Below, one piece after another: positions 6,121-58,363 of a DNA stretch of 64,000 nt (positions are counted from its first letter, which is position 1; every line of letters starts with the position of its first letter). The notes beneath the pieces were generated by a model. The model was not told the origin of the DNA. It did no database searches and worked only from the letters and a program-made list of their open reading frames with translations. The stretch covers positions 89,225,583-89,289,582 of the forward strand of contig NC_133390.1 of the NCBI RefSeq assembly GCF_047511655.1. The letters run 5' to 3'. Source of the DNA: Castor canadensis (lineage: Eukaryota > Chordata > Mammalia > Rodentia > Castoridae). The position numbers were made by a program, and so were the translations under genes.

Positions 6121-7238
6121 GGGGGTGGAGCTGTTGAAGATATAACATAGGAAAGTCAATAAAGATTATATAATGTGTTCAAATGAATTACAAATTCATT
6201 TTACAAAGTATGACTATGGTAACTATGCAATACGTTGTTCCAAACAGGTACACTTCCAGGGCACAAAGAGGATGTTACCGATGATTATAAGGGAACAGTA
6301 CAAAGGTAAATCCCATAAAAACAGATCTGAACATTGCAAAGATTATATTAATTGCATTTACCCTTTCCTTTTAGCCATGATGAAACCAACCCTATTAGGG
6401 AGAAGGTTGGGTATAATCAGGTCTTTAAAATATGGAGAAATAGTTCATAGACATCTATGGAGTAAGTGCCACAGTTTGAGGCTCCTAGAATTAGCTTAAA
6501 TTGACCAGAGTACCAAGGATTTGAACTGAGCTCCCTTCTCTTAAGGGTCTGGGATGGAGAGTAAGAGCAGACTTCCAAAACTTTGCCTGCTGTGGTGAAC
6601 AGAAACATACTAAGGGAGTGTTCCATGGCACAGAAGTGTGCTCCTCTGCAGGAGCCTTGTTTTCTCCTCTCATTCCAGAACTTCTCAAGCCAGGGCCTTC
6701 ATGCTGTGTGCATCTTTCTGTTTCCATCTCTTCTTCCTTATCTTTTAATGCTGGGTGGTTATTTTCAAAATGTTTTATTCCACCCTCTGTACATCCCAAG
6801 TGATCATCTTCTCAGCCATGGAAGTGTTGCCCACAGTGCGTGAAGGAAGGGCATTTTCCAGAGGAGGCAGTACTGCTTGATGGACATGGTCCTGTGGTGG
6901 TATAGGGCAGGAGGTTCAGTAAGCTAGAGACTCCACAGGGTCTGCACTGTAGTCAGATGGCTCTGATTTAAGGGGGCAATCAATGCTTTCTGTGCCAGCT
7001 CTAATTTAGTGTTGCCCTTTAGACTCACTGAGAGAGCAGCCAGCCATTCAGCCAGTGTTCAACCATGTTTACACAAGGTTCCATGTGGAACCACTGGTGT
7101 CAGGTAGGGGCAGCTCAGAACTGACAGCTTGGAGACTGAGAGCATTGGAGCTAATCTAGGCTGGGACACCATCCAGCTGTATAATTTTGAACAAGTCCTA
7201 TACCAACCTGTGTCTTAAAGTTCTAAAAGATAATAATA
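6121..7238. other. Unique DNA, no gene recognised
   Basis: Several overlapping open frames (60-108 codons) lie at 6173-6843 on both strands, but none shows a domain, and the overlap of frames argues against coding. A MIR-like phrase is present at about 7150-7230. Confidence 0.4.
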
Positions 7239-10469: not shown

Positions 10470-10929
10470 TTTTTTTTTCATTTTTCTTTTATTATTCATA
10501 TGTGCATACAAGGCTTGGTTCATTTCTCCCCCCTGCCCCCACCCCCTCCCTTACCACCCACTCCGCCCCCTCCCTCTCCCCCCCCTCAATACCCAGCAGA
10601 AACTATTTTGCCCTTATTTCTAATTTTGTTGTAGAGAGAGTATAAGCAATAATAGGAAGGAACAAGGGTTTTTGCTGGTTGAGATAAGGATAGCTATACA
10701 GGGCATTGACTCACATTGATTTCCTGTGCGTGGGTGTTACCTTCTAGGTTAATTCTTTTTGATCTCACCTTTTCTCTAGTACCTGTTCCCCTTTTCCTAT
10801 TGGCCTCAGTTGCTTTAAGGTATCTGCTTTAGTTTCTCTGCGTTAAGGGCAACAAATGCTAGCTAGTTTTTTAGGTGTCTTACCTATCCTCACCCCTCCC
10901 TTGTGTGCTCTCGCTTTTATCATGTGCTC
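10470..10929 (-). mobile_element. 5'-truncated young L1 3' end
   Basis: The reverse complement matches the 3' UTR of the two long L1 copies at 24.9-30.8 and 51.1-58.3 kb. It includes the C-rich strand of the polypurine tract (10530-10582) and a poly(T) at the left that is the L1 A-tail. It is cut off 5' just inside the 3' UTR, so no ORF2 remains. Perfect 13-bp duplications flank it. Of similar age to the long copies, judging by similarity. Confidence 0.92.
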
Positions 10930-24904: not shown

Positions 24905-24920
24905 AAGAGTGGAAATGTAG
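24905..24920. repeat. Left 16-bp target-site duplication of the U6-L1 unit
   Basis: aagagtggaaatgtag, repeated exactly at 30813-30828. Its last G is also the first base of U6, so the true duplication may be 15 or 16 bp. Confidence 0.93.
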
Positions 24921-25026
24921 TGCTCGCTTCGGCAGCACATATACTAAAATTGGAATGATACAAAGAAGATTAGCATGGCCCATGCACAAGGATGACACGC
25001 AAATTCGTAAAGCGTTCCATATTTTT
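24920..25026 (+). ncRNA. U6 spliceosomal snRNA, retrotransposed copy
   Basis: This is a full-length 107-nt copy of U6, the RNA at the catalytic centre of the spliceosome. It starts gtgctcgcttcggcagcaca, keeps the AGC triad (24972-24974) and ends in the oligo(T) that marks the natural U6 3' end. Compared with the mammalian U6 I recall, it has five substitutions, most of C>T or G>A type. One changes the ACAGAGA box, which pairs with the 5' splice site, to ACAAAGA (24960-24966). U6 genes need upstream pol III elements; no TATA box is seen 25-30 bp upstream. The 3' end runs straight into L1, and the flanking duplication encloses U6 plus L1. It is therefore a dead copy carried in by retrotransposition, not an active gene. 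Confidence 0.95.
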
Positions 25027-25253
25027 TATCTTTATTTGTTTTTATTTTTTAATTTCAATCCTCTCTCTGTTCCTCTAATGCCTGTTCAGCTTACTGTCGA
25101 TTAGTACCCTAACGCTCCCTGTTGCCCTTTTCTTTAACTTATTGCTTTCCATCTCCGCTCACCGTTCCATTCTAAATATTACGATTGTTGTTATTACAAG
25201 CTAGAAAATACTTAATTGCACACAGTACAGGGACAGTAACAACACCAAAGACA

Positions 25254-26451
25254 ATGACGGGAAGACAGAAAAAACAGGGAAACCAGTTTCCCCACAGCAA
25301 AAAATTAGTACAGGAACCAGAGGGGAATGAAGAAAACAGATACACAGATCCAGACTCCAACAAAATGAAGATAAACTATGCCAAAGGATCCAATGAAGCC
25401 CACAAGAATAAGTTAAAAGAAGACATACAACAGGTACTCAATGAGAATTTTATAGAGATGATACTGGATAGGGTCAACCAAAATGTACAGGAGACACTCA
25501 AGAAATTCCAAGACAACAAAAATAGAGAATTTGAAAAAGCAAAAGAAGAAATAAAGGAAACCATAGAAGCACTGTATAAACACCAAAGTGAAACAGAGAC
25601 CACAATGAATAAACAGATAAATGAACTCAGGACAAAAATAGACAACATTAAAGAGGAAACCACCCAGGATATGGAAAACCTCAGAAAAAAGAACGAAACA
25701 CAACTGCAAAACAAAACGGAAGGCCAATCCAGCAGAATAAAACAAAGAGAAGACAGAACCTCAGAACTTGAAGATGAAATGTTAATTAAAGGAAAAACCG
25801 AATAACTATTAATTAAACAACTCAAGACCTGTGAAAAGAAAATGCAAGAACTCACCAACTCCATCAAAAGACCAAACTTGAGAATCATGGGCAAAAGAAG
25901 GAGAAGAGGTGCAAGCGAAGGGAATGCATAATATATTCAACAAAATAATAATGGAAAATTTCCCAAATCTAGAGAAAGATATTCCCATACAGATGCAAGA
26001 GGCCTCCAGGACACCAAACAGACCAGATCAAAATAGAACTACCCCACAACATATCATAATTAAAACAACAAGTTCAGAAACTAGGGAAAGAATATTGAAA
26101 GCTGTAAGAGAGAAAAAACAAGTAACGTACAAAGGTAAACCCATCAAAATCACAGCAGACTTCTCAACAGAAACATTAAAAGCAAGAAGAGCATGGGGTG
26201 AGATCTTCCGGGCACTGAATGAAAATAACTTCAACCCCAGGATACTCTACCCAGCAAAACTATCATTCAAAATAGATGGAGCAATAAAAGTCTTCCATGA
26301 TAAGCAGAAACTAAAACAATATGTGAACACAAAGCCACCACTACAAGATTCTGCAAGGGATTCTGCACACAGAAAGTGCACCCAACTTAACCATGAAAAG
26401 ACAGGCAGCACCAAACCACAGGAAAAGAAAAAGCAAGACAGTAGAGAGTAA
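25254..26451 (+). pseudogene. L1 ORF1 (RNA-binding protein), disrupted
   Basis: ORF1p is the trimeric nucleic-acid chaperone that coats L1 RNA. I take the start at the ATG at 25254 (M-T-G-R-Q), which fits the usual start of the reading frame. The frame runs through a long coiled coil (roughly residues 50-170), then hits TAA at 25803-25805 where the second L1 has GAA. About 90 bp later a 2-nt deletion near 25892 shifts the frame. The RRM and C-terminal domain continue from 25909 to 26451. Near the end two small deletions (about 26346 and 26376) shift the frame out and back, changing about 10 residues while keeping the final segment. The protein cannot be made intact. Confidence 0.9.
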
Positions 26452-26501
26452 CCTCAACTTAGGTACACACAATCAAACCTTCAAACAACTAAGACAACTA
26501 A

Positions 26502-29500
26502 ATGACAGGAATCACCACATACCTATCAGTACTAACACTTAATGTTAATGGACTTAATTCACCCATCAAAAGGCACCGCTTGATGAAATGGATTAAAAGG
26601 GAAGATCCAACAATTTGTTGCTTACAGGAGACCTATCTCACCAACAGAAATAAGCATAGGCTTAGGATGAAAGGCTGGAAGAAGATTTACCAAGCCAATG
26701 GCCCCCGAAAACAGGCAGGAGTAGCAATACTTATCTCTGACAAAGTAGACTTCAAACCTACATTGATCAAACGAGATAAAGAAGGACATTCCATACTAAT
26801 AAAAGGGGAAATAGACCAAAAGGAAAAAATAATCATGAACCTGTATGCACCCAATGTCAACGCACCCAATTTCATCAAACATACCCTGAAAGACCTAAAA
26901 GCATATATTAACACCAACACAGTGGTTGTAGGAGACTTTAACACCCCATTATCATCAATAGATAGGTCATCCAAACAAAAAATCAATAAAGAATCCAAGA
27001 TCTAAAATATGCAATAGATCAAATGGACCTAGTTGATATCTACAGAACATTTCATCCAACCTCTACACAATATACATTTTTCTCAGCAGCCCAAGGAACC
27101 TTGTCCAAAAAAGATCATATCATAGGGCACAAAGCAAGTCTCAGCAAATATAAGAAAATAGAAATTATACCATGCATACTATCTGATCAAAATGCAGTAA
27201 AAGTAGAACTCAACAACAAAAGTAAAGACAAAATACATGCAATCAGCTGGAAACTAAATAACTCATTACTTAATGAAGAATGGGTCATCAATGAAATAAA
27301 AGAGGAAATTTAAAAGTTCCTGGAAGTCAATGAAAATGAAAACATAACCTAACGGAACCTATGGGACACAGCTAAGGCAGTCCTGAGAGGAAAGTTTATA
27401 GCCATGAGTGCATATATTAAAAAGACTGAAAGATCAAAAATCAGTGACCTAATGATACATATCAAACTCCTAGAAGAACAAGAACAAGCAAATCCCAAAA
27501 CAAATAGAAAGAGAGAAATAATAAAAATAAGAGCTGAAATCAACGAAATAGAAACCAAAAAAAACCATACAAAGAATTAATGAAACAAAAAGTTGGTTCT
27601 TTGAAAAAATAAACAAGATTGATAGACCCCTGGCAAACCTGACTAAAATGAGGAGAGAAAAAAAACCCAAATTAGTAGAATCAGGAATGCAAAAGGGGAG
27701 ATAACAACAAACACCATGGAAGTCCAGGAAATCATCAGAGACTACTTTGAGAACCTATATTCAAATAAATTTGAAAATCTTAAAGAAATGGACAGATTTC
27801 TAGATACATATGATCATCCAAAACTGAACCAAGAGGAAATTAATCAACTGAATAGACCTATAACACAAAATGAAATTGAAGCAGCAATCAAGAGTCTCCC
27901 CAAAAAGAAAAGTCCAGGACCTGATGGATTCTCTGCTGAATTCTATCAGACCTTTAAAGAAGAACTGATACCAAACCTCCTTAAACTGTTCCATGAAATA
28001 GAAAGGGAAGGAAAACTGCCAGACACATTTTATGAAGCTAGTATTACACTTATCCCAAAACCAGGCAAAGACACCTCCAAAAAGGAGAACTATAGGCCAA
28101 TCTACTTAATGAACATTGACGCAAAAATCCTCAACAAAATAATGGCAAACAAAATTCAACAACACATCAAAAAGATTATTCACCATGACCAAGTAGGCTT
28201 CATCCCAGGGATGCAGGGCTGGTTCAACATACGAAAATCAATAAACGTAATAAACCACATTAACAGAAGCAAAGACAAAAACCACTTGATCATCTCAATA
28301 GATGCAGAAAAAGCCTTTGATAAGATCCAACACCATTTCATGATAAAAGCTCTAAGAAAACTAGGAATAGAAGGAAAGTACCTCAACATTATAAAAGCTA
28401 TATATGACAAATCTACAGCCAGCATTATACTTAATGGAGAAAAACTGAAACCATTCCCTCTAAAATCAGGAACCAGACAAGGATGCCCACTATCTCCACT
28501 CCTATTCAACATAGTACTGGAATTCCTAGCCAGAGCAATTAGACAAGAAGAAGGAATAAAAGGAATACAAATAGGTAAAGACACTGTCAAATATCCAAAT
28601 TTGCAGACGACATGATCCTATACGTTAAAGACCCAAAAAACTCTACTCAGAAGCTTCTAGACATCATCAATAGCTATAGCAAGGTAGCAGTATATAAAAT
28701 CAACATAGAAAAATCATTAGCATTTCTATACACTAACAATGAGCAAACTGAAAAAGAATGTATGAAAACAATTCCATTTACAATAGCCTCAAAAAAAATC
28801 AAATACCTAGGTGTAAACCTAACAAAAGATGTGAATGACCTCTGCAAGGAAAACTATAAACTTCTGAAGAGAGAGGTTGAGGAAGACTATAGAAAGTGGA
28901 GAGATCTCCCATGCTCATGGATTGGTAGAATCAACATAGTAAAAATGTCGATACTCCCAAAAGTAATCTACATGTTTAATACAATTCCCATCAAAATTCC
29001 AATGACATTCATTAAAGAGATTGAAAAATCTACCGTGAAATTTATATGGAAAAACAAGAGGCCACAAATAGTCAAGGCAATACTCTGTCAAAAGAACAAC
29101 GATGGAGGTATCACAATACCTGACTTCAAACTATATTACAAAGCAATAAAAATAAAAACAGCATTGTACTGGCACAAAAACAGACATGAAGACCAGTGGA
29201 ACAGAATAGAGGACCCAGATATGAAGCCACACAACTATAACCAACTTGTCTTTGACAAAGGAGCTAAAAATATACGATGGAGAAATAGCAGCCTCTTCAA
29301 CAAAAACTGCTGGGAAAACTGGTTAACAGTCTGCAAAAAACTGAAACTAGATCCATGTATATCCCCCTATACCAAGATTAACTCAAAATGGATCAAGGAT
29401 CTTAATATCAGACCCCAAACTCTAAAGTTGATACAGGAAAGAGTAGAAACTCCTCTGGATTTAGTAGGTATAGGTAAGAACTTTCTCAATGAAACTCCAG

Positions 29501-30330
29501 CAGCACAGCAACTAAGAGATAGCATAGATAAATGGGACCTCATAAAGCTAAAAAGCTTCTGTTCATCAAAAGAAATGGTCTCTAAACTGAAGAGAACACC
29601 TACAGAGTGGGAGAAAATATTTGCCAGCTACACATCAGACAAAGGACTGATAACCAGAATATATAGGGAACTTAAAAAACTAAATTCTCCCAAAACTAAT
29701 GAACCAATAAAGAAATGGGCACGTGAACTAAACAGAACCTTCTCAAAAGAAGAAATTCAAATGGCCAAAAAACACATGAAAAAATGCTCAACATCTCTAG
29801 CAATAAAGGAAATGCAAATTAAAACCACGCTAAGATTCCACCTCACCCCCGTTAGAATAACCATCATTAGCAACACCACCACCAACAGGTGTTGGCGAGG
29901 ATGCAGGGGAAAAGGAACCCTCTTACACTGTTGGTGGGAATGTAGACTAGTACAACCACTCTGGAAAAAAATTTGGAGGCTACTTAAAAAGCTAGACATT
30001 GATCTACCATTTGATCCAGCAATACCACTCTTGGGGATATACCCAAAAGACTGAGACACAGGTTACTCCAGAGGCACCTGCACACCCATGTTTATTGCGG
30101 CACTATTCACAATAGTCAAGTTATGGATACAGCCAAGATGCCCCACCACTGATGAATGGATTAAGAAAATGTGGTATCTACACACAATGGAATTTTATGC
30201 AGCCATGAAGAAGAACGAAATGTTATCATTCGCTTGTAAATGGATGGAATTGGAGAACATCATTCTGAGTGAAGTTAGCCTGGCCCAAAAGACCAAAAAT
30301 CGTATGTTCTCCCTCATATGTGGACATTAG
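26502..30330 (+). pseudogene. L1 ORF2 (endonuclease-reverse transcriptase), disrupted
   Basis: ORF2p nicks target DNA and reverse-transcribes L1 RNA. The start ATG lies 50 bp after ORF1. The endonuclease shows LNVNGLN, QETYL and GDFNTPL. A 1-nt deletion near 26990 shifts the frame; the piece 27023-27313 carries D-H and S-D-Q, where the active-site SDH histidine is replaced by Gln. TAA at 27311 follows. Further indels lie in 27340-27715. The RT palm is at about 27716-28611; a 1-nt loss just before 28600 puts FADD (28600-28611) in the next frame. The tail has the zinc-knuckle-like C-W-R-G-C ... H ... C near 29890-29942, a TGA at 30052-30054, and a natural end at TAG 30328-30330. Dead copy. Confidence 0.92.
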
Positions 30331-30812
30331 ATCAAGGGCAAACTCAACAAGGGGATTGGACTTTGAGCACATGATAAAAGCGAGAGCACACAAGGGAGAG
30401 GTGAGGATAGGCAAGACACATAAAAAATTAGCTAGCATTTGTTGCCCTTAACGCAGAGCAACTAAAGCAGATACCTTAAAAGCAACTGAGGCCAATAGGA
30501 AAAGGGGAACAGGAACTAGAGAAAAGGTGAGATCAAAAAGAATTAACCTAGAAGGTAACACCCACACACAGGAAATCAATGTGAGTCAATGCCCTGTATA
30601 GCTATCCTTATCTCAACCAGCAAAAACCCTTGTTCCTTCCTATTATTGCTTATACTCTCTCTACAACAAAATTAGAAATAAGGGCAAAATAGTTTCTGCT
30701 GGGTATTGAGGGGGTGGGAGGAGAGGGAGGGGGCGGAGTGGGTGGTAAGGGAGGGGGTGGGGGCAGGGGGGAGAAATGACCCAAGCCTTGTATGCACATA
30801 TGAATAAAAAAA
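30331..30812 (+). other. L1 3' UTR with G-rich polypurine tract and A tail
   Basis: About 480 bp between the ORF2 stop and the A tail. A G-rich tract (30706-30773) with many runs of three or more G could form G-quadruplexes, a feature shared by mammalian L1 3' UTRs. A 'gaataaaa' signal overlaps the tail start at 30802. Confidence 0.88.
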
Positions 30813-30828
30813 AAGAGTGGAAATGTAG
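30813..30828. repeat. Right 16-bp target-site duplication of the U6-L1 unit
   Basis: aagagtggaaatgtag, identical to 24905-24920, directly after the A tail. Confidence 0.93.
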
Positions 30829-51135: not shown

Positions 51136-51615
51136 AGCTAGAGGGAGGAAGCAGAAAGCTAGCCTCCTATAGTGAAATCTTGGAGAGATGCTGGAGACAC
51201 ACTTTGCAGGCATAATCACTGAGAAGAGGCATAACTTTGACACCTCCACACCTCCAGCCAGCGCAGAGAATCTCCACGTTAAAGGGGAAACCAGGAGGAC
51301 CCCCCAGGCCACAAGTCACCCGTGCCCAGATGGCTTGGGAAGATGCAGACCAGGTGAACTTCGTAGTACCACGGTACTCCCACAGACAAGCCTGGGCCAG
51401 AGCAGCATAGCCCCCTGGACAGACTGACCTCCACCCAGGGAAAAAAGAGAAACTGAGTAATAAGCAATAAGAACAATAAAGACACACGGGAAAGAGGGTG
51501 GGGGGCCCTGAGCGCTGAAGATTGGGGGAAGGGAATCCTTCCTGGGACTGTAAATAAATGAGCCGGGCAGGCTGGAGAGGCTCTGGTGGGAGCAAGGGTG
51601 CAACCCAGCAACCAG

Positions 51616-51841
51616 GAGCAGGAAACCTTGTGAGAGTGGCAGAGGGAGGAAAACTCCACAGGAGAGGAGGGAAGACCCACTTCCCAAGTGAACTGTAAAC
51701 AAACATGGCGGCTGGCAGGAGCAGCAGCACCACCCAGTAAGCAGGAGCAGGAAAGCTTTTGAAAGTGGCGGTGGGAGGAAAACTCCACAGGAGAGGGGGG
51801 AAGACCCACCTCCCACATGAACTGTAAATAAATATGCAGGC
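51616..51841 (+). repeat. 129-bp tandem repeat in the L1 5' UTR
   Basis: gagcaggaaa at 51616 and 51745, aaactccaca at 51651 and 51780, and aactgtaaa at 51691 and 51820 are all offset by exactly 129 bp. A weaker related segment begins near 51546. It resembles the monomer arrays of other rodent L1 promoters in plan. Confidence 0.85.
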
Positions 51842-52180
51842 CTGACAACGCGGGTGCAGTGTCACCTTTCCCAGTGCTTGGAAAGGGGAAAGCTTGTAGC
51901 AGAGGCTCCCGCACAGGAGAACTCTGAGCAAACAAAGTCTGCAGGGCCAGGTGAGTGCTAAGCTCACCCCAGAGATCTGCATAAATAACGCCTCCAGCAA
52001 CAGCAGGCTGACAGCAGTGGGCAGGCAAGCCACAGCTGCAGATACCATCCTCAGAACTGTCTCCAGACTCTTTTTTTTCTTTTTCTCCCTACCCTTGATG
52101 AGAGAACAACTGAATTACACCTGCATGCTGAAAAACTTACTGAAACTGTATTGCATTTGAACTTCGGACACTTGGTGGGG

Positions 52181-52183
<3 letters not shown>

Positions 52184-52215
<32 letters not shown>
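52184..52215 (+). repeat. (TG)n microsatellite
   Basis: About 16 TG units inside the L1 5' UTR. Confidence 0.95.
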
Positions 52216-52216
<1 letters not shown>

Positions 52217-52737
52217 TTTTACTTTATGCATCCCCTTTGATGAGACAACTACAGAACAACATCTGAGGCACCATCTCCAGGATTTGAGACTGGGATGGAC
52301 ACCCAAATTATTAAGAATGAAACATCATTGCATTTGAAATTGGAGGTTTTTTGGTTTTTTTTTTTTAATTTTCAATTTTTCATCTTATTTTAATTCATTT
52401 TTATAGACAGATATTTCTTTCATTTGCTTATTTTTTATTTTTATTCTTATCTTTTTTTTGATTTTTGATTTTCAATCCTCTCTCTGTCTCTCTAATGTCT
52501 GTTCAGCTTACTGCCAATTAGTACACTAAAGCTCCATGTTTATACCTTTGAAACTTTCTTGTCTGATACCTGGAACTGTTTTCTCCTTCTTGTCTTTGTA
52601 TTTGTTTTCCCTCTTTCTAAACTTCTTGTTTTCCATCTCAGCTCACCCTTCCATTCTAAATATTACCATTGTTATTATTATAAGCTAGAAAATACTTAAT
52701 TGCACACAGTACAGGGACAGTAACAACACCAAAGACA

Positions 52738-53940
52738 ATGACAGGAAGACATTAAACACAGGGAAACCAGTTTCCCCACAGCAAAAAATTAGTACAGGAA
52801 CCAGAGGGGAATGAAGAAAACAGACACTCAGATCCAGACTCCAACAAAATGAAGATAAACTATGCCAAAGGACCCAATGAAGCCCACAAGAATAATTTAA
52901 AAGAAGACATATTACAGGTATTCAATGAGAATTTTATAGAGATGATACTGGATAGGGTCAACCAAAATGTACAGGAGACACTCAAGAAATTCCAAGACAA
53001 CAAAAACAGAGAATTTGAAAAAGCAAAAGAAGAAATGAAGGAAACCATAGAAGCACTGTATAAACACCAAAGTGAAACAGAGACCACAATGAATAAACAG
53101 ATAAATGAACTCAGGACAAAAATAGACAACATTAAAGAAGAAACCACCCAGGATGTGGAAAACCTCAGAAAAAAGAACGAAACAGAACTGCAAAACAAAA
53201 CGGAAGGCCAATCCAGCAGAATAGAACAAACAGAAGACAGAATCTCAGAACTTGAAGATGAAATGGTAATTAAAGGAAAAACCGAAGAACTATTAATTAA
53301 ACAACTCAAGACCTGTGAAAAGAAAATGCAAGAACTCACCAACTCCATCAAAAGACCAAACTTGAGAATCATGGGCATCGAAGAAGGAGAAGAGGTGCAA
53401 GCGAAGGGAATGCGTAATATATTCAACAAAATAATAATGGAAAATTTCCCAAATCTAGAGAAAGATATTCCCATACAGATGCAAGAGGCCTCCAGGACAC
53501 CAAACAGACCAGAACAAAATAGAACCACCCCACAACATATCATAATTAAAACAACAAGTTCAGAAACTAGGGAAAGAATATTGAAAGCTGTAAGAGAGAA
53601 AAACCAAGTAACATACAAAGGTAAACCCATCAAAATCACAGCAGACTTCTCAACAGAAACATTAAAAGCAAGAAGAGTGTGGGATGAGATCTTCTGGGCA
53701 CTGAATGAAAATAATTTCAACCCCAGGATACTCTACCCAGCAAAACTATCATTCAAAATAGATGGAGCAATAAAAGTCTTCCATGATAAGCAGAAACTAA
53801 AACAATATGTGACCACAAAGCCACCACTACAAAAGATTCTGCAAGGGATTCTGCACACAGAAAGTGAAACCCAACTTAACCATGAAAAGACAGGCAGCAC
53901 CAAACCACAGGAAAAGAAAAAGCAAGACAGTAGAGAGTAA
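52738..53940 (+). pseudogene. L1 ORF1 (RNA-binding protein), N-terminus disrupted
   Basis: The ATG matching the usual start is at 52738, but codon 6 is TAA (52753-52755). The frame is otherwise open. The next ATG in frame, at 52849, opens 363 codons to 53940. It keeps a long Glu/Lys-rich coiled coil (about residues 10-145 of the shorter form), an RRM starting around N-L-R-I-M-G, and the C-terminal domain (PQHIIIK to DGAIKVFHDKQK). The missing part would be about 37 N-terminal residues. A shortened protein is conceivable if translation starts at the internal ATG; nothing shows this happens. Confidence 0.88.
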
Positions 53941-53990
53941 CCTCAAATTAGGTACACACAATCAAACCTTCAAACAACTAAGACAACTAA

Positions 53991-56900
53991 ATGACAGGAA
54001 TCACCACATACCTGTCAGTACTAACACTTAATGTTAACGGACTTAATTCTCCATCTAAAGGCACCACTTGATGAAATGGATTAAAAGGGAAGATCCAACA
54101 ATTTGTTGCTTATTGGAGACCTATCTCACTGACAGAAATAATCATAGGCTTAGGATGAAAGGCTGGAAGAAGATTTACCAAGCCAATGGCCCCCAAAAAC
54201 AGCCAGGAGTAACAATACTTATCTCTGACAAAGTAAACTTCAAACCTACATTGATCAAACGAGATAAAGAAGGACATTCCATACTAATAAAAGGGGAAAT
54301 AGACCAAAAGGAAATAATAATTATCAACCTGTATGCACCCAATGTCAATGCACCCAGTTTCATCAAACATACCCTGAAACCTAAAAGCATATATAAACGC
54401 CAACACAGTGGTTGTGGGAGACTTTAACACCCCATTATCATCAATAGATAGGTCATCCAAACAAAAAATCAATAAAGAAATCCACGATATAAAATATGCA
54501 ATAGATCAAATGGACCTATTTGATGTCTACAGAACATTTCATCCAACCTCTACACAATATACATTTTTCTCAGCAGCCCATGGAACCTTCTCCAAAATAG
54601 ATCATATCCTAGGGCACAAAGCAAGCCTCAGCAAATACAAGAAAATAGAAATCATACCGTGCATACTATCTGACCACAATGCAGTAAAAGTAGAACTCAA
54701 CAACAAAAGTAAAGACAAAAAACATGCAAACAGCTGGAAACTGAATAACTCATTGCTTAATGAAAAATGAGTCATTGATGAAATAAAAGAGGAAATTAAA
54801 AAGTTCCTGGAAGTCAATGAAAATGAAAACACAACCTACCAGAACCTATGGACACAGCTAAGGCAGTCCTGAGAGGAAAGTTTATAGCCATGAGTGCATA
54901 TATTAAAAAGACTGAAAGATCCCAAATCAATAACCTAATGATACATCTCAAACTCCTAGAAAAACAAAAACAAGCAAAACAAATAGAAAGAGAGAAATAA
55001 TAAAAATAAGAGCTGAAATCAACGAAATAGAAACCAAAAACACCATACAAAGAATTAATGAAACAAAAAGTTGGTTCTTTGAAAAAATAAACAAGATCGA
55101 TAGACCCCTGGCAAACCTGACTAAAATGAGGAGAGAAAAAACCCAAATTAGTAGAATCAGGAATGCAAAAGGGAGATAACAACAAACACCATGGAAGTCC
55201 AGGAAATCATCAGAGACTACTTCAAGAACCTATATTCAAATAAATTTGAAAATCTTAAAGAAATGGACAGATTTCTAGATACATATGATCTTCCAAAACT
55301 GAACCAAGAGGAAATTAATCACCTGAATAGACCTATAACACAATATGAAATTAAAGCAGCAATCAAGAGTCTCTCCAAAATGAAAAGTCCAGGACCTGAT
55401 GGATTCTCTGCTGAATTCTATCAGACCTTTAAAGAAGAACTGATACCAACCTTCCTTAAACTGTTCCATGAAATAGAAAGGGAAGGAAAACTGCCGGACA
55501 CATTTTATGAAGCCGATATTACACATATCCCAAAACCAGGCAAAGACACCTCCAAAAAGGAGAACTATAGACCAATCTACTTAATGAACATTGACGCAAA
55601 AATCCTCAACAAAATAATGGCAAACCAAATTCAACAACACATCAAAAAGATTATTTACCACGACCAAGTAGGCTTCATCCCAGGGATGCAGGGGTGGTTC
55701 AACATATGAAAATCAATAAATGTAATAAACCACATTAACAGAAGCAAAGACAAAAACCACTTGATCATCTCAATAGATGCAGAAAAAGCCTTTGATAAGA
55801 TCCAACACCATTTCATGATAAAAGCTCTAAGAAAACTAGGAATAGAAGGAAAGTACCTCAACATTATAAAAGCTATATATGACAAACCTATGGCCAGCAT
55901 TATACTTAACGGAGAAAAACTGAAAACATTCCCTCTAAAATCAGGAACCAGACAAGGATGCCCACTATCCCCACTCCTATTCAACATAGTACTGGAATTC
56001 CTAGCCAGAGCAATTAGGCAAGAAGAAGAAATAAAAGGATTACAAATAGGTAAAGAAACTGTCAAAATATCCCTATTTGCAGATGACATGATCCTATACC
56101 TTAAAGACCCAAAAAACTCTACTCAGAAGCTTCTGGACATCATCAATAGCTATACCAAGGTAGCAGGATATAAAATCAACATAGAAAAATCATTAGCATT
56201 TCTATACACTAACAATGAGCAAATGGAAAAAGAATGTATGAAAACAATTCCATTTACAATAGCCTCAAAAAAAAATCAAATACCTAGGTGTAAACCTAAC
56301 AAAAGATGTGAATGACCTCTACAAGGAAAACTATACACTTCTGAAGAAAGAGATTGAGGAAGACTATAGAAAGTGGAGAGACCCCCATGCTCATGGATTG
56401 GTAGAATCAACATAGTAAAAATGTCTATACTCCCAAAAGTAATCTACATGTTTAATGCAATTCCCATCAAAATTCCAATGACATTCATTAAAGAGATTGA
56501 AAAATCTACCATTAAATTTATATGGAAACACAAAAGGCCACAAATAGCCAAGGCAATACTCAGTGAAAAGAACAATGCAGGAGGTATCACAATACCTGAC
56601 TTCAAACTATATTACAAAGCAATAACAATAAAAACAGCATTGTACTGGCACAAAAACAGACATGAAGACCAGTGGAACAGAATAGAGGACCCAGATATGA
56701 AGCCACACAACTATAACCAACTTGTCTTTGACAAAGGAGCTAAAAATATACAATGGAGAAATAGCAGCCTCTTCAACAAAAACTGCTGGGAAAACTGGTT
56801 AGCAGTCTGCAAGAAACTGAAACTAGATCCATGTATATCACCCTATACCAAGATTAACTCAAAATGGATCAAGGATCTTAATATCAGACAACAAACTCTA

Positions 56901-57804
56901 AAGTTGATACAGGAAAGAGTAGGAACTACTCTGGAGTTAGTAGGTTTAGGTAAGAACTTTCTCAATGAAACCCCAGCAGCACAGCAACTAAAAGATAGCA
57001 TAGATAAATGGAACCTCATAAAGCTAAAAAGCATCTGTTCATCAAATGAAATGGTCTCTAAACTGAAGAGAACACCCACAGATGGGAGAAAATATTTGCC
57101 AGCTATACATCAGACAAAGGACTGATAACCAGAATATATAGGGAACTTAAAAAACTAAATTCTCCCAAAACTAATGAACCAATAAAGAAATGGACAAGTG
57201 AACTAAACAGAACTTTCTCAAAAGAAGAAATTCAAATGACCAAAAAACACATGAAAAATTGCTCACCATCTCTAGCAATAAAGGAAATGCAAATTAAAAC
57301 CACACTAAGATTCCACCTCACCCCTGTTAGAATAGCCATCATTAGCAACATCACGAACAACAGGTGTTGGCGAGGATGCGGGGAAAAAGGAACCCTCTTA
57401 CACTGTTGGTGGGAATGTAAACTAGTACAACCACTCTGGAAAAAAATTTGGAGGCTACTTAAAAAGCTAGACATTGATCTACCATTTGATCCAGCAATAC
57501 CACTCTTGGGGATATACCCAAAAGAATGTGACACAGGTACTCCAGAGGCACCTGCACACCCATGTTTATTGTGGCACTATTCACAATAGCCAAGTTATGG
57601 AAACAGCCAAGATGCCCCACCACTGACGAATGGATTAAGAAAATGTGGTATCTATACACAATGGAATTTTATGCAGCCATGAAGAAGAGCGAAATGTTAT
57701 CATTCGCTGGTAAATGGATGGAATTGGAGAGCATCATTCTGAGTGAGGCTAGCCTGGCCCAAAAGACCAAAAATCATATGTTCTCCCTCATATGTGGACA
57801 TTAG
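53991..57804 (+). pseudogene. L1 ORF2 (endonuclease-reverse transcriptase), disrupted
   Basis: Starts 50 bp after ORF1. A 1-nt deletion near 54053 brings TGA at 54069-54071 after 26 codons. Later pieces keep good motifs: QET is altered to LET at about 54115, GDFNTPL near 54420, and SDHNAV near 54670 with the active-site His kept. Other lesions: 2-nt loss near 54378, TGA at 54768-54770 replacing Trp, 1-nt loss near 54857, TGA at 55707-55709 replacing Arg, an extra A in the run near 56267, and 1-nt loss near 57535. FADD of the RT is intact (56076-56087), and the zinc-knuckle-like C-W-R-G-C ... H ... C lies at about 57366-57418. The natural stop is TAG at 57802-57804. Confidence 0.92.
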
Positions 57805-58292
57805 ATCAAAGGCAAACACAACAAGGGGATTGGACTTTGAGCACATGATAAAAGCTTTAGCACACAAGGGAAGGGTGAGTATAGGTAAGACACCTAAAAA
57901 ATTTGTTAGCATTTGTTGCCCTTAACGCAGAGAAACTAAAGCAGATACCTTAAAAGCAACTGAGGCCAATAGGAAAAGGGGACCAGGAACTAGAGAAAAG
58001 GTGAGATTAAAAAGAATTAACCTAGAAGGTAACACACACTCATAGGAAATTAATGTGAGTCAACTCCCTGTATAGCTATCCTTATCTCAACCAGGAAAAA
58101 CTCTTGTTCCTTCCTATTATGGCTTATACTCTCTCTACAACAAAATTAGAAATAAGGGCAAAATAGTTTCTGCTGGGTATTGAGGGGGTGGGGGGGAGAG
58201 GGAGGGGGCGGAATGGGTGGTAAGGGAGGGGGTGGGGGCAGGGGGGAGAAATGACCCAAGCCTTGTATGCACATATGAATAATAAAAAAAAA
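57805..58292 (+). other. L1 3' UTR with polypurine tract and A tail
   Basis: Same layout as 30331-30812; G-rich tract at 58180-58247, then the 'gaataataaaaa' tail. Confidence 0.88.
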
Positions 58293-58363
58293 GGCAGGGG
58301 GTGGAGGGAAAGGGGGAGAAATGACCGAAACATTGTATGCACGTATGAATAAAAGAAAAAAAA
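58293..58363 (+). repeat. Second, diverged L1 3' terminus
   Basis: 'ggcagggggtggagg' to 'cgtatgaataaaagaaaa' repeats the last ~70 bp of the L1 3' UTR plus tail with several substitutions (for example gaccgaaacattg against gacccaagccttg). It lies directly after the first A tail. Confidence 0.85.

Follow-up and report, generated by a model that had tools for sequence, protein, structure and literature searches.

A U6 snRNA sequence that runs into an L1 poses the question of whether the two arrived together or whether an L1 landed beside an older U6 copy. The case analysed here lies in a 64-kb stretch of DNA (the window; contig C5:89225583-89289582 of a 2.81-Gb genome) whose sole gathering-level Rfam match is a complete U6 snRNA retrocopy, 3´ T run included, at 24920–25026 on the plus strand (RF00026, model positions 1–105 of 105, 106.5 bits, E 9.7e-27). 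L1 sequence abuts the U6 T run with no gap and in the same sense as the full-length U6, the L1 ORFs and domains also lying on the plus strand; because the adjoining L1 tract is T-rich, the joint can be located only to within a few nucleotides. The L1 part spans 25027–30812 (5786 bp) and ends in an A run, after which comes the second copy of a 16-bp target-site duplication. The first-pass annotation had described a complete U6 running straight into L1, and both its anatomy and its coordinates proved correct. We conclude, with a probability of roughly 0.96, that U6 and L1 were inserted together in one event, as a U6/L1 chimeric retroinsertion.

The argument for one event is carried by the duplication and not by divergence. 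The left copy, AAGAGTGGAAATGTAG, lies at 24905–24920 on the plus strand, its last G being U6 +1, and the right copy is exact at 30813–30828 on the same strand, directly after the A run, so that one perfect duplication encloses U6 and L1 together, as had been claimed. With up to three mismatches allowed, the 16-mer matches these two places only in the window; since 1.16 matches are expected from shuffles at that threshold (two or more in 32 of 100), the weight of the duplication lies in its exactness and its placement at both borders. Two separate events, in which an older U6 pseudogene received an L1 precisely at its 3´ end, are exceedingly unlikely. The single duplication surrounds both parts, and the same three-mismatch search of the window found no third copy at the U6–L1 joint. 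No second duplication of at least 14 nt was found at the U6 or L1 borders among 20 of the 22 repeat families listed, and this covers a different duplication around the L1 alone, which had been named in advance as contrary evidence. In addition, end-to-end U6–L1 joints occur at 28 other independent places read in this genome.

The observation that would fit two events is the greater divergence of U6 compared with the L1. The U6 part carries 5 substitutions in 107 bases (4.7%) relative to the majority sequence of 37 U6 copies from this genome; these are the copies, of the 80 read, whose alignment starts at base 1 and spans 107 bases exactly (the window copy and three copies from one array, L012–L014, are included). 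Two of the five changes fall at CpG sites where about one third of the 37 copies vary likewise. Terminal branches for the L1 were 2.0% over 550 nt on the ORF1 side (8-row tree) and 3.05% and 2.3% in two more 3´ pieces (5 and 9 rows), estimates drawn from few copies and from trees that are mostly weakly supported. At L1 branch rates of 2.0–3.05%, the probability of five or more U6 changes is 0.07–0.23. A cruder count of 6 private L1 changes in the 550 nt gives 0.007, and this count is a low estimate of L1 divergence because it omits changes shared with any one relative. The excess in U6 is therefore within chance on the three tree estimates and beyond it on the fourth, and the divergence of the two parts is compatible with one event on the former, less so on the latter, without amounting to proof.

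Joined host flanks, which represent the empty-site form, matched nothing beyond this place when searched against the window and 88 loci. The insertion site is presumably spanned by an ancient mammalian repeat; a pattern for this repeat was tried as a source of a paralogous empty site and matched eight places, three of which were read. A profile of these three found neither joined nor separate host flanks, and the approach was dropped.

To place the L1 part within its family, we used as a ruler another L1 of this family in the window (W2; 51121 to ~58290). The chimera's L1 is 95.4% identical to W2 52606–58289 over a 5702-column alignment. By this ruler the family is ~7.2 kb at full length, with a 5´UTR of ~1.6 kb that starts with GGATTCCAAGATGGC, and the U6 joint lies ~1.32 kb into the 5´UTR (~1325 on W2). 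The window copy thus lacks ~1.3 kb at its L1 5´ end and retains 5786 bp, so that the term 5´-truncated is apt. Immediately after U6 comes the end of a 5´UTR intron at 25027–25089, comprising the T-rich tract, a pyrimidine tract and the putative 3´ splice site TTCAG, as aligned with W2, L002 and L004–L006. The 5´UTR then continues from the acceptor to ORF1 (25090–25253), and alignment revealed that ~60–66 nt near 25122, present in all five aligned copies (W2, L002, L004, L005, and L006), are missing in the chimera. The ORF1 region (25254–26451; PF02994, PF17490) is disrupted by a stop at 25803–25805, and the ORF2 region (26502–30054; PF03372, PF00078) is broken several times and split among several frames. 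The RNA-binding, endonuclease and reverse transcriptase domains are nevertheless recognisable. Hence both ORF regions are present, as the first-pass annotation had it, but neither is intact. The 3´ part, which contains a G-rich tract at 30708–30761 and ends in a short A tail, occupies 30055–30812; all of these L1 segments are on the plus strand. Lacking the first ~1.3 kb of its 5´UTR, with broken ORFs and with no daughter copy found, the U6/L1 copy is most likely inert.

Other traces of the family in the window include W2 itself, which is near full-length and carries 1.8 copies of a 129-bp repeat unit in the 5´UTR (51603–51836). At 58222–58363 the W2 3´ terminus is followed by another L1 3´-end copy of ~70 bp, the two being 86–87% identical, and a 3´ fragment of the same family at 10487–10929 on the minus strand is 96.7% identical to the 3´ end of the chimera.

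The length of the L1 part makes it conceivable that the joint pre-existed in a longer-lived, mobile U6–L1 source element of which the window copy is a daughter. The genome-wide searches leave this barely credible. The joint pattern, at up to three mismatches, occurs at one place in the whole genome (a control pattern matched none), and a 356-base query across the joint has its full-length match only here among the 40 places scored from 2834 candidates. At the remaining 39 scored places the match starts no earlier than query base 115 and so includes at most the final T-rich bases of U6 and the sequence after them. The joint is independent and no copy of another chimera.

Such joints are common in this genome. 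A 39-nt U6 3´-end pattern, at up to three mismatches, found 152 places (control pattern, 0), of which 100 were listed and 80 of those 100 read. At 31 of the 80, U6 runs into L1 within 25 nt; because L012–L014 form one tandem array, three of these rows count as one event, which leaves 29 independent joints. The search for further U6–L1 joints that had been proposed therefore yielded 28 besides the present one. Outside the 31, below the survey cut, are L015, in which U6 has an A tail and L1 flanks it on both sides, and the looser L059 and L027. On the W2 ruler the L1 starts at ~1325 in the window copy, at 1781, 4347, 4512 and 5561 in four others, and at 6125 or beyond in the other 24. The L1 part described as unusually long is, at 5786 bp, the longest among the 29 independent joints read. 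Exact repeats of 9–17 bases around U6 and its downstream part were present in 16 of 29 rows, a count made without a shuffled control. Its rows omit L013, L023 and L064 from the 31 and add L027; some loci had only 300 bases downstream, and L019, L045 and L052 are weak.

At L012–L014 (contig C12:12239693-12248450) a U6/L1 chimera lies inside another L1 and now forms a tandem array of three or more units, each ~2.86 kb long and 98–99% alike; the array perhaps arose from unequal crossing-over between the two L1s. At L010 (1432–2429, U6-strand numbering) U6 is fused to a retrocopy of clathrin light chain mRNA (PF01086, E 2.3e-33) that has an A tail; a 16-bp repeat starts 874 nt downstream of U6.

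The window copy has the structure expected of target-primed reverse transcription in which U6 is added 5´ of the L1, and we infer that the L1 endonuclease and reverse transcriptase were the agents. The endonuclease would have nicked the target on the strand reading CTCTT/GCC. The corresponding top strand, GC/AAGAG (GGC/AAGAGTGG), is non-canonical for this enzyme, whose textbook site is TT/AAAA; the 14 other chimeras listed for this genome include TC/AAG and AT/AG but no GC. L1 RNA would then have been reverse-transcribed from the A tail over ~5.8 kb. U6 RNA, attached in sense orientation at the 5´ end of the L1 sequence within the T-rich 5´UTR tract, would have been copied up to or beside its first base, where copying presumably stopped, and joining of the second strand would have left the one 16-bp duplication around both parts.

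By which route U6 was joined is more evenly balanced, and we give even odds to ligation of U6 to the L1 RNA before reverse transcription as opposed to template switching. Bases common to U6 and L1 at the joint average 1.0 across 24 clean joints, compared with 0.28 across 5860 W2 positions; the 24 leave out the window copy and include the three L012–L014 array copies. At 13 of the 24 there is no shared base and U6 ends in its own 4–6 Ts. The scarcity of shared bases, and their absence from these 13, favors RNA ligation, while the small excess over W2 leans to switching. The window joint, depending on the relative aligned, admits from about 2 to about 8 shared T-rich bases. We rejected a specific claim of microhomology at this joint, as the 8 shared bases (TATTTTTT) came from one alignment and other relatives give about 2. 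End-to-end template jumping needs no homology either, and neither switching nor ligation uniquely predicts the slight surplus of shared bases. RNA ligation also has in its favor an experimental report (Moldovan 2019), as conveyed in PMC13174262 and PMC13247085.

The same features recur in chimeras from other mammals. PMC4476161 sorts the U6 copies of 48 vertebrate genomes into classes, with retrotransposon-joined copies in most of the mammals tabulated and a duplication at 13 of 14 human U6 copies joined to retrotransposons. PMC13174262 describes 180 human U6/L1 loci in which U6 is typically full-length and in sense in 98.3%; the L1 part is frequently 5´-truncated, full-length partners are also mentioned, and there is usually no further spread. 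These accounts bear out the earlier statement that U6–L1 chimeras are known from other mammals. Like the chimeras they describe, the window copy has a complete sense U6 5´ of the L1, a joint at the T run, one duplication around both parts, and an A tail; it differs in that its L1 part is longer than in the 28 other independent joints read here. The U6/mRNA chimeric pseudogenes treated in PMC4476161 have the same joint at the U6 end, as at L010, the partner here being an L1. The long L1 part is the extreme of a known distribution and no new kind. The insertion is real and was read correctly at first pass, and it is ordinary in kind: a clean, long example of a recurrent by-product of L1 movement.

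The position of the joint relative to an apparent 5´UTR intron of this L1 family was also considered. The first 5´UTR block ends in ACAAG or ACCAG followed by GTGAGC or GTGAAC in L002, L004, L005, and W2; at the same donor position L006 reads ACCACGTGAGC. In L003, L007, and L008 the first block is joined directly to CTTACTG, with ~1.1 kb in between missing, and in unspliced L1 copies CTTACTG comes after TTCAG. The predicted intron in W2 is 51354–52506. The U6 joint falls ~63 nt upstream of the acceptor, the AG of which ends at 25089, and use of this acceptor is suggested by L003, L007, and L008. As U6 would lie near the 3´ splice site, it might have been joined to L1 pre-mRNA held in the spliceosome, an idea that we regard as highly unlikely. 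The intron position concerns a single joint of the 29, which proves nothing, and the L1 part next in length (starting at 1781) begins beyond the acceptor, so that any link to splicing is speculation. Were the idea true, spliceosome-held L1 RNA would be one source of U6/L1 chimeras, and comparing joint positions with L1 splice sites across mammals could show whether splicing contributes.

The spliced integrated retrotransposed elements described in PMC5860796 provide a parallel, in that the 5´UTR of the present family likewise has a donor and an acceptor, apparently used by L003, L007, and L008. The window copy differs from those elements in being unspliced at the joint and in having U6, not the first 5´UTR block, before the L1. 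Judged from their sequences, L003, L007, and L008 apparently represent integrated spliced L1 RNAs; in each a first 5´UTR block of 238 nt is joined to the acceptor (L003, 1163–1434). Among the 39 other copies scored with the joint query, four more match only from near the CTTACTG acceptor point.
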